From Owenia fusiformis (lineage: Eukaryota; Annelida; Polychaeta; Sabellida; Oweniidae): a stretch of 64,000 nt of DNA. The position numbers and the translations under genes were made by a program. Numbering within the stretch: position 1 is the stretch's first letter; each line of letters opens with the position of its first letter. Location of the stretch: positions 9,456,842 through 9,520,841 of the forward strand of contig CAIIXF020000011.1 in NCBI GenBank assembly GCA_903813345.2. Direction: 5' to 3'. This document shows, piece by piece, positions 51,870 through 61,486 of this stretch. The notes below the pieces were generated by a model. That model was not told the origin of the DNA. It saw nothing but the letters and a program-made list of their open reading frames with translations, and searched no databases.

Positions 51870-52750
51870 CAGGATAGGGGTGACCATATCTCACATTATT
51901 AACTTCCAAAATATGGAGCATATGTATCTCAAATGTGCTCAAAATGTTGTATGTACTCTTGCTTTGTCATAATATTACTAATAAGAAGTAGAAAAATGAT
52001 TGTACATTTTAGAAATTATTAATTCTCATTTTGGCTTCTGACGTCCCAGGGGTGACCATATCTCACCTTTATAACTTCCAAAATATGTAGCATATGTATC
52101 TTAAATGTGGTCAAAATGGTGTATGTACTCTTGCTTTGTCATAATATTGGTAATAAGAAGTAAGAAAATGATTGTACATTTAAAAAAATATTAATTCTCA
52201 TTTTGGCTTCTGACGTCCCAGGGGTGACCATATCTCACCTTAATAACTTCCAAAATATTGAACATATGTATCTCAAATGTGCTCAAAATGGTGTATGTAC
52301 TCTTGCTTTGTCATAATATTAGTAATAAGAAGTAGAAAAATGATTGTACATTTTAGAAATTATTAATTCTCATTTTGGCTTCTGACGTCCCAGGGGTGAC
52401 CATATCTCACCTTAATAACTTCCAAAATATGGAGCATATGTATCTCAAATGTACTCAAAATGGTGTATGTACTCTTGCTTTGTCATAATATTATACTAAT
52501 AAGATGTAGGAATATGATTATACATTTAAAATTTTTTAATTTTAGCTTCTTACGTTCCTGGGTAATCATATCGCAACATATAATAATAATAATAACTTCT
52601 TAGATATGTAACATATACGCCTCAAATATTCTCAGAAAAGTCTTGTCTTTCATATTACTAATGAAATATAGAAAAATGATTGCATTTTTTAAAAAATTTT
52701 AATTTTAGCCTCTGGTGTCCCACCTTGATAACTCTCACGATATGCAACTT
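51870..52750 (+). repeat. 172-bp tandem repeat, left arm
   Basis: 'cttctgacgtcccagg' occurs at 52,035, 52,207 and 52,379 (step 172), with a diverged unit at 52,546 and partial units on both sides. Each unit contains 'ggtgaccatatctcacc', 'taacttccaaaatatg' and 'gtatgtactcttgctttgtc'. The same units lie inverted in the right arm. Confidence 0.9.
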
Positions 52751-54499: not shown

Positions 54500-55350
54500 A
54501 CTGTGAGAGTTATATCAAGGTGAGATATAGTTGCCCCTGGGATGTCGGATTCGGAAGCTAAAATGAAAATTTCAATTAAAAAAAGGTGTAATAATTTTTT
54601 CTACATCTCATGAATAATATTATGACAAAGCAAGACCATATGCCCCATTTTTGGTATATTTGAGTTATATATGTTAAAATTAACATTTTTATTTAAATGT
54701 ATAATCATATTCCTACATCTTATTAGTATAATATTATAACAAAGCAAGAGTACATACACCATTTTGAGTACATTTGAGATACATATGCTCCATATTTTGG
54801 AAGTTATTAAGGTGAGATATGGTCACCCCTGGGACGTCAGAAGCCAAAATGAGAATTAATATTTTTTTAAATGTACAATCATTTTCCTACATCTTATTAG
54901 TAATATTATGACGAGACAAGATTATATACACCATTTTGAGCACATTTGAGATACATATGCTCCATATTTTGGAAATTATTAAGGTGAGATATGGTCACCC
55001 CTGGAACGTCAGAAGCTAAAATGAAAATTAATATTTTTAAAAATGTACAATCATTTTCTTACATCTTATTAGTAATATTATGACTAGACAAGACTATAAA
55101 CACCAGTTTGAGCAAATTTGAGATACATATGCTCCATATTTTGGAAGTTATTAAGGTGAGATATGGTCAACACTGGAACGTCAGAAGCTAAAATGAAAAT
55201 TAATATTTTTTAAAATGTACAATCATTTTTCTACATATTATTAGTAATATTATGACAAGGCAAGACTATATACACCATTTTGAGCATATTTGAGATACAT
55301 ATGCTCCATATTTTGGAAGTTAATAATGTGAGATATGGTCACCCCTATCC
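54500..55350 (-). repeat. 172-bp tandem repeat, right arm
   Basis: The inverted counterparts read 'ggtgagatatggtcaccc' at about 54,812, 54,981 and 55,155 and a 'gtgagatatggtcacccct' near 55,328, with a diverged unit at 54,520. Spacing is about 170 bp. Units here have diverged from each other about as much as from the left arm. Confidence 0.88.
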
Positions 55351-57621: not shown

Positions 57622-57702
57622 CCGATCTTTGTCTTTCTGTTCCCTTAGTCTGCTTGCATATATTAGATACACATAGACACCTGGGTTCCATTCTCCTCTA
57701 AC
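57622..57702 (-). CDS. MDN1: Midasin exon I, flanked by copies of its own start
   Basis: 81 nt, 27 codons, phase 0; acceptor acatttcag, donor CGG/gtaggc. It encodes VRGEWNPGVYVYLIYASRLR then EQKDKDR, joining DLIIHDQ of exon H to VFDIYREL of exon J as in other midasins. Its first 40 nt and its acceptor are the unit that is tandemly multiplied immediately upstream (57,703-58,322). The innermost copy is therefore the true exon border, since only it reads on through LIYASRLREQ. Confidence 0.93.
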
Positions 57703-58322
57703 CTGAAATGTTTCATAAAAGATACACATAGACACCTGAGTTCCATTCTCCTCTGACATGAAATGTTTCATATAAGATACACATAGACACCTGAGTTCCA
57801 TTCTTCTCTAACCTGAAATGTTTCATATAAGATACACATAGACAACTGAGTTCCATTCTCCTCTGACATGAAATGTTTCATACAAGATACACATAGACAC
57901 CTGAGTTCCATTCTCCTCTGACATGAAATGTTTCATACAAGATACACATAGACACCTGAGTTCCATTCTTCTCTGACATGAAATGTTTCATACAAGATAC
58001 ACATAGACACCCGAGTTCCATTCTCCTCTGACATGAAATGTTTCATACAAGATACACATAGACACCCGAGTTCCATTCTCCTCTGACATGAAATGTTTCA
58101 TATAAGATACGAATAGACACCTGAGTTCCATTCTCCTCTGACATGAAATGTTTCATATAAGTTACACATAGACACCTGAGTTCCATTCTTCTCTGACATG
58201 AAATGTTTCATACAAGATACACATAGACACCTGAGTTCCATTCTCCTCTGACATGAAATGTTTCATATAAGTTACACATAGACACCTGGGTTCCATTCTC
58301 CCTTGACCTGCAATGTTTCATC
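57664..58322 (-). repeat. MDN1: 56-bp minisatellite made from an MDN1 3' splice site
   Basis: About 11-12 units. On the minus strand each reads ATGAAACATTTCAG (acceptor) followed by GTCAGAGGAGAATGGAACTC and AGGTGTCTATGTGTATCTT. The unit is thus intron 3' end plus exon I codons 1-13. Middle units have AACTCAGGT (Asn-Ser-Gly). The two outermost units keep AACCCAGGT (Asn-Pro-Gly) like the real exon. In middle units the frame meets TGA soon after (GTATGA), and 56 is not a multiple of 3. Use of an upstream acceptor would therefore truncate the protein. Confidence 0.95.
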
Positions 58323-58552: not shown

Positions 58553-58660
58553 CTGGTCATGTATAATAAGGTCACACCACCTGAAGAGATCTCTGAGATT
58601 AAACTCCCAGGGACTACCCCTCCTCCCCCACAGCTTCAACTCCGTCGTCTCCTGGTACAC
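58553..58660 (-). CDS. MDN1: Midasin exon H
   Basis: 108 nt, 36 codons, phase 0; acceptor tacatgtag, donor CAG/gtaaaa. It encodes VYQETTELKLWGRRGSPWEF then NLRDLFRWCDLIIHDQ. The WG..G.PWEFNLRDLFRWC block is a hallmark of midasin after the sensor of the fifth AAA module. The exon is GC-richer than its flanks, as expected of conserved coding sequence. Confidence 0.95.
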
Positions 58661-60640: not shown

Positions 60641-60731
60641 TATGTTATGATCTATTACCTGACCCTAGTGCATCAAGAAAGACTAGACACTCCCATGTAT
60701 GTATGCTAGGGTTTGTTCTACTGGAGACACA
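60641..60731 (-). pseudogene. Frameshifted duplicate of the end of MDN1 exon C
   Basis: The 91 bp align with 61,297-61,390 at high identity, including the donor 'gtaatagatcata' and coding words LAYIHG and FLDALGSG on the minus strand. Relative to the real exon one base is missing after CATGGG, which shifts the frame and creates a TAG. There is no acceptor. It sits in the intron between exons D and C. Confidence 0.88.
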
Positions 60732-61310
60732 CTTGCATTTATTTCTAGAGTGTGAGCGAAGAAAAGGTAACACAAAAAATGTTAATAACCCAGTCATTCA
60801 GCATGGGTTTGAGGTAACCTTATTGGCACAATTAAACCCTTTTCTTTCATTCCACTAAAGTTCATTGGTCTTATCAAAATGGTCACGATTTTATGGCCAT
60901 TTTACATAACCCGCTCATAATGCCAGTCTCATCTCTGGAGGCAAACTTGAACGCATCGGGTGAAGTTATTCTGATGACACGCTCACAGCATCTTGTGAAG
61001 TGGCTCTCATCTTTTTGGAGTTGTCAAGTTTTGAGCAGTCTAGAGCGCTGAGCATGCTCTGCTAGGCGCTGGTGCCATAACCATGAGGTCAAGAATTTGA
61101 GATGCATAAGTTCCCTGTTTTATTCATATATGAATCACTGTCTGAGCTTTCAGTTGCAGATGTAAAAATAACCCCTCTAGTGTGTGAATGTATGTAGTGA
61201 TATTTTATATATGATGTAATTGTTTTATACATGTATTTATATAACCCATGACATTAACATTTGTTTGGGTTACCTTTTTATGGCTCACCATGTATATTAT
61301 GATCTATTAC

Positions 61311-61486
61311 CTGACCCTAGTGCATCAAGGAAGACTAGGCAGGCCCCATGTATGTATGCTAGGGCTGGTTCTAATAGAGACACCTTTTCACTGGCCTCCA
61401 TATCCATGGCATCACCATCAATTGTCTTAGAACATGTATTGATAAATGCGACCCAGGACAGAATATCTCGTATACTGATAGTGCTC
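61311..61486 (-). CDS. MDN1: Midasin exon C
   Basis: 176 nt, phase 2 in and 1 out; acceptor atgttttcag, donor TCAG/gtaata. With the split AGG codon it reads RSTISIRDILSWVAFIN, then a variable acidic stretch, then LAYIHGACLVFLDALGSG. SIRDILSWV and the closing helix are conserved in midasins as the C-terminal helical part of AAA domain 4. Confidence 0.95.

Follow-up and report, generated by a model that had tools for sequence, protein, structure and literature searches.

The MDN1 gene of Owenia fusiformis contains a 55-bp tandem array of 12 copies that runs from the end of an intron into exon I, and this array is most probably a neutral 'mirage', i.e. a tandem duplication that is tolerated since the copy adjoining the exon body is spliced. 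Comparable arrays were found at other exon boundaries of MDN1 and of dynein genes. We lean slightly towards regarding them as a genome-wide feature of a spiralian, independent of that in amphioxus, two large gene classes having roughly 8 to 12 of them per 100 exons (11 arrays over 92 to 143 exons, sense minus antisense) and one essential gene carrying as many as 25 consecutive, almost identical acceptors that are all intact.

Anatomy of the array at MDN1 exon I

The array was located with Tandem Repeats Finder at 57665-58321 (period 55, 11.9 copies, 94% matches, score 1132) of the window, by which we mean the whole stretch of 64,000 nucleotides that was analysed. The array and its neighbouring exons are as follows (a slash marks a splice junction here and below):

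57665..58321, minus strand: 55-bp tandem array, 12 copies (11.9 by Tandem Repeats Finder), in the intron that separates MDN1 exons H and I, extending into exon I
58553..58660, minus strand: MDN1 exon H, 36 codons (VYQETT...LIIHDQ), phase 0 end followed by GTAAAA, Midasin match
57622..57702, minus strand: MDN1 exon I, 27 codons (VRGEWNPGVYVYLIYASRLREQKDKDR), the first ~41 nt being the exonic part of copy 12, Midasin match and lid domain

On the minus strand each unit consists of the last 14 nt of the MDN1 intron and ~41 nt of the start of the next exon, and the copies read ATGAAACATT(T/G)CA(G/T), followed by ~41 nt that start with GTTAGAG or GTCAGAG (GTCAAGG in copy 1). The units therefore span the exon–intron boundary, and the end copy is continuous with a genuine exon, copy 12 running into exon I, both of which are features that define a mirage. 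The open frame of exon I continues from this low-coordinate copy to the donor CGG/GTAGGC. When the spliced exons were compared with Midasin chains (6or5), the best match had an E value of 2.2e-141 and reached residue 204 or 205 of 206, and Pfam placed the Midasin AAA lid domain at residues 117-205 of 206. By sequence similarity, the host gene is confirmed as MDN1 (Midasin), a ribosome-building gene, and as the exon I frame and its neighbours match Midasin, the array represents an intron end and an exon start of MDN1. An initial annotation of this DNA had described a minisatellite derived from the 3′ splice site that precedes an MDN1 exon, which the unit anatomy and the Midasin matches support; its division of the unit into intron end and ~40 nt of exon also holds, with a unit length of 55 bp instead of the 56 bp given there.

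Whether a 100-nt piece or the complete array served as the query, the genome matched solely at the array's own place (12 copies and one stretch, respectively). No Rfam family was found in the window at the gathering threshold, so the 55-bp repeat is no known RNA of the Rfam library. In the same gene, one exon end together with its donor (LVFLDALGSG, TCAG/GTAATAG) occurs twice, at 60648-60734 and 61300-61386; the extra copy is decayed (about 88%) and lies downstream of the genuine one by some 650 nt.

The acceptor of each copy was read directly and scored with a matrix built from 13 MDN1 and dynein acceptors, which is weak (left-out true sites score -2.9 to 9.1); percentiles are relative to 4841 AGs on the minus strand of a 93.4-kb stretch.

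58267..58321, minus strand: copy 1, intron side, TTGCAG/GTCAAGG, exonic from 58307, score 3.6 (92nd percentile of AGs), frame open for 11 codons, then a stop
57827..58266, minus strand: copies 2-9, TTTCAT/GTCAG, acceptor AG changed to AT
57772..57826, minus strand: copy 10, TTTCAG/GTTAG, exonic from 57812, score 6.7 (97.5th percentile), frame open for 14 codons, then a stop
57717..57771, minus strand: copy 11, AT in place of the acceptor AG
57662..57716, minus strand: copy 12, fused to exon I, TTTCAG/GTTAG, score 7.5 (98th percentile), the best of the array and the putative functional acceptor

The AG is present in three of the 12 copies, namely 1, 10 and 12, copy 12 being the real exon (its final bases already diverge from the unit) and copy 10 the sole inner copy with an AG. 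Every unit had been said to carry TTTCAG/GT, and about 11 functional-looking decoys had been counted; neither statement agrees with the copies, which have TTTCAG/GT in two cases (10 and 12), TTGCAG/GT in one (copy 1) and TTTCAT/GT in nine. With the AG lost from 9 of the 11 upstream copies, a plausible acceptor persists in copies 1 and 10, so that there are two plausible decoys and not eleven. In a functional array of decoy acceptors the copies would keep the AG, and here 3 of 12 do so with the real one included. The nine AT copies retain an AG five bases on, in another frame, where scores range from -3.5 to -1.1 (52nd to 68th percentile). As copies 1 and 10 keep the AG and outscore, by the same matrix, the exon-fused acceptors of two other MDN1 arrays (1.9 for array B and 2.5 for array C, described below), some use of these two copies as decoys is quite possible.

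We then considered where each AG would lead, taking positions +0, +5 and +22 of every copy, which gives 21 AGs in copies 1-11. A stop is reached before the end of exon I from 19 of them, in agreement with the earlier claim that the inner units run into a stop codon. The claim fails at +5 of copy 10 and +22 of copy 11, which are in frame and would add inserts of 35 and 11 residues, respectively. Since the other tested sites yield no stop-free Midasin apart from these two insert forms, copy 12 would be the acceptor used, as judged from its reading frame and from the weak 13-site matrix.

Boundary arrays elsewhere in MDN1 and in dynein genes

Three more arrays lie at MDN1 exon boundaries beyond the right end of the window, in sequence joined from L006-L008 and given here with the window numbering continued:

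67039-67252 (L006): array B, 89 bp, copy number 2.4, at an MDN1 acceptor (the exon with CGKTT), AG in 3 of 3 copies
75696-77549, equal to C11 9532537-9534390 (L007): array C, 74 bp, 25 copies, at an MDN1 acceptor, AG in 25 of 25 copies
80898-81713 (L007): array D, 83 bp, at an MDN1 donor, GT in all 9 recognised copies, plus one decayed copy at the far end

The exons at all three arrays match Midasin, in a stretch that we take to be AAA2 to AAA4. The unit of array D comprises 69 nt of exon end and GTTAGTTATTTCAG, so that the units resemble mini-exons with 14-nt spacers. A copy-by-copy check of array C showed acceptors of the form TATC(C/A)TGTACAG/GTGCATT, with one copy reading GCATCCTGTACAG, and a genome search gave 25 matches, all at its own place. 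Because all 25 AGs of array C are live, the row of functional-looking acceptors described in the initial annotation fits array C. The same applies to its proposal of a natural test of acceptor competition, which suits the 55-bp array poorly (9 of 11 upstream AGs lost) and array C far better.

For comparison, 16 pieces of 10 kb were taken at dynein heavy-chain AAA_6 matches, a subset of the 88 matches listed, picked blind to repeats. They contain 24 arrays with a period of at least 25 and a score of at least 150, and 7 of the 24 span an exon boundary when all flanks are read by eye:

L010, 59 bp: donor; exon with a DHC_N2 match at E 2.2e-6, below the model's curated cut-off
L010, 30 bp: donor; exon identified as dynein by AAA_6
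L014, 140 bp: donor; exon matches dynein chains
L017, 41 bp: donor; exon matches dynein chains
L016, 117 bp: acceptor; exon identified as dynein AAA lid
L022, 37 bp: acceptor; exon identified as dynein by AAA_6
L017, 111 bp: acceptor; 22-residue candidate exon without any match, unconfirmed

A dynein exon was thus confirmed for six of the seven. With the 55-bp array of MDN1 set aside, the AG or GT is kept in 80 of 81 recognised copies of the remaining ten boundary arrays, which makes the 55-bp array the exception. One wholly intronic array was also seen close to a boundary, at 2317-3569 of L021 in gene sense; it has 14 copies of 89 bp and starts 16 nt past a dynein-like donor.

Taken together, 11 of 34 arrays (10 confirmed) hold an exon boundary, compared with 3.0 to 7.3 expected by random placement, a result that depends strongly on the exon threshold and on boundary-spanning having been judged by eye from the flanks. 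Exon candidates were defined by a codon score, and with the threshold raised from 9 to 18 in four steps the number of the 34 arrays expected to hold a boundary was 7.3, 5.5, 4.4 and 3.0, with probabilities of at least 11 such arrays of 0.08-0.09, 0.011, 0/2000 and 0/2000. The antisense control yielded 167 candidates against 259 in sense at the low threshold, which therefore includes many false exons, and 10 against 121 at the high threshold, which includes few; the sense minus antisense counts at the four thresholds were 92, 143, 138 and 111. The boundary-array count also carries ascertainment, since it was the 55-bp array that brought MDN1 into the analysis. The excess of arrays at boundaries is accordingly modest, likely but not firm, and we claim no firm enrichment. 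Duplications that arise everywhere and survive where one good exon copy remains explain much of the boundary frequency, and a pull of arrays towards boundaries is possible, given that the observed number exceeds expectation at most exon thresholds.

Origin of the array and its tolerance

Copies 1 and 12 share AACCCAGGT, while the ten inner copies have AACTC (seven with AACTCAGGT, two with AACTCGGGT and one with AACTCAGTT). The mean number of differences per 47 nt is 1.8 between inner copies, 5.8 between copy 1 and the inner copies, and 3.6 between copy 12 and the inner copies. Both ends are therefore further from the inner copies than these are from each other, as in mirages, whose ends are excluded from homogenisation. 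These data bear out two proposals of the initial annotation, that the end units share one state and the inner units another, and that the ends escape homogenisation. The linked changes CATGTCAG for CAGGTTAG are common to 9 of the 12 copies, and copy 10 has the CAGGTTAG state, as copy 12 does, flanked by copies with CATGTCAG, which suggests that the derived unit spread around copy 10. Read from its copies, the array has undergone concerted evolution of the ordinary kind, in which the ends are conserved, as has been published for the amphioxus globin array BflGb6 (PMC3087553).

We propose that a tandem duplication straddled the 3′ splice site before MDN1 exon I by chance, and that it would have grown to 12 copies through unequal exchange or slippage. 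The inner copy that was amplified would have lost its AG (AG to AT), which would leave the decoys mostly dead. Copy 12 alone would be spliced, and the other copies would be intronic and removed with the intron. Exon definition may account for the tolerance, with the spliceosome taking the acceptor that is paired with the nearby exon I donor. We infer this from the position of the functional copy, which lies nearest to the exon's own donor in acceptor arrays and to its own acceptor in donor arrays; as this arrangement holds by construction in every boundary array, it is a prediction of exon definition rather than support for it. No special function would be needed, and the array is one of several of its kind in this genome, where both donors and acceptors are affected.

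The loss of the AG could instead have been favoured by selection, such that only an acceptor-dead unit was able to expand, and the identity of the linked changes in 9 of the 12 copies would fit such a history. We regard this as unlikely, since one mutation spread by copying explains the loss, and the 80 of 81 splice dinucleotides kept in the ten other arrays, including all 25 acceptors of array C in MDN1 itself, indicate that live decoys are tolerated.

It is quite improbable that the copies act as regulated decoys, competing with the real site and shunting MDN1 transcripts to nonsense-mediated decay so that copy number tunes output. The AG in plausible context in copies 1 and 10 and the stops after 19 of the 21 tested upstream AGs are what such decoys would show, but the AG is lost in 9 of the 11 upstream copies, the amplified copy is a dead one, and the real site has the top score of the array. 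Moreover, splicing is reported to be undisturbed by the amphioxus mirages (PMC3087553, PMC3902484).

We consider a collapse or expansion of the repeat during assembly very improbable. The copy number comes from the assembly, with one haplotype, and one published amphioxus array had been mis-assembled in the draft genome (PMC3087553). Against an artefact, point changes at several sites distinguish the copies, and like arrays occur elsewhere in MDN1 and in dynein genes.

Finally, the array could be a new intron running from CCCAG/GTGTCT of copy 1 to CCCAG/GTGTCT of copy 12, with CCC kept in both end copies because it is coding and with a full-length protein in which VKGEWNP replaces VRGEWNP. The frame stays open when copies 1 and 12 are joined at AACCCAG/GT, both ends have AACCCAGGT, copy 1 keeps the original intron end, and intron gain from mirages has been proposed (PMC3087553) and an intron from boundary duplication shown in potato (PMC4974935), but the reading is extremely improbable, as the required copy 12 acceptor (+22) is preceded by a purine-rich stretch and has a score of -6.2 (33rd percentile of AGs on the weak matrix), the donor has no G at +5, and CCC at the ends may reflect mere escape from homogenisation.

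Relation to described boundary arrays

Constructed minigenes are the usual means of studying how the spliceosome chooses among many splice sites that are nearly identical. MDN1 holds both a mostly dead acceptor array (55 bp) and one of 25 live acceptors (74 bp), so a single transcript would allow the two to be compared, and array C, with AG in all 25 copies, is the better test case for acceptor competition. The human IFI6 minisatellite (Turri et al. 1995) reportedly has multiple splice donors, its repeat units carrying splice sites as those of the MDN1 array do, although these are said to be donor sites that are used, in shorter units. Among the matches listed in the open-access literature, we recognised no boundary array in a spiralian.

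Copied intron–exon junctions are already known, described so far mainly in amphioxus, and the MDN1 array is a further case. Amphioxus mirages are known in Adh3, the globins BflGb6 and BflGb9, TnC and PGBD5 (PMC3087553, PMC3902484), and like the MDN1 array they are minisatellite-like tandem duplications of an intron–exon boundary. BflGb6 shares with it a unit of intron end and exon start and end copies that lie outside homogenisation (PMC3087553); many but not all of its repeats have AG/GT, whereas the MDN1 array has lost the AG in 9 of 12. RT-PCR of amphioxus mirage genes revealed no interference with splicing (PMC3087553, PMC3902484). Instability and RNA have been studied for the amphioxus mirages. 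The lineages differ, amphioxus in one case and a spiralian in the other: a search with a Lox5-type homeodomain gave eleven Hox-like matches between 17.97 and 18.47 Mb of C1, the best of them followed by EKLTGP, and KLTGP behind the Lox5 homeodomain is a spiralian signature, by which we take amphioxus to be rejected as the source. Searches for the GFP family, for a lancelet-derived fluorescent protein and for a mollusc haemocyanin family yielded no match, which is no evidence on the lineage either way.

In the potato RdRp gene, the duplicated piece likewise consists of intron end and exon start, but this is a single duplication that is now spliced as a new intron with RNA-seq support, and not a multi-copy array (PMC4974935). 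Human genes in segmental duplications also have minisatellite-size repeats at exon–intron boundaries, and new introns have been proposed from such internal tandem repeats; unlike the MDN1 array, they belong to recent primate paralogs and were found via transcripts (PMC2812944). Among the papers listed in the search for spiralian arrays, the nearest case is earthworm metallothionein, with intronic minisatellites and a duplicated exon that is missing from the transcript (PMC12783039).

If boundary arrays proved to be common both in amphioxus and in a spiralian, the phenomenon would not be a cephalochordate oddity, and the share of arrays in intron gain and in mis-annotated exons would become measurable. 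If this held genome-wide, each array would offer a naturally occurring case in which exon definition can be tested against first-AG scanning, and new introns would have a standing source of raw material in the arrays. Two other arrays of the window, at 51876-52541 and 54676-55346, have 172-bp consensus units in the Tandem Repeats Finder table that are apparently mutual reverse complements, ~2 kb apart.
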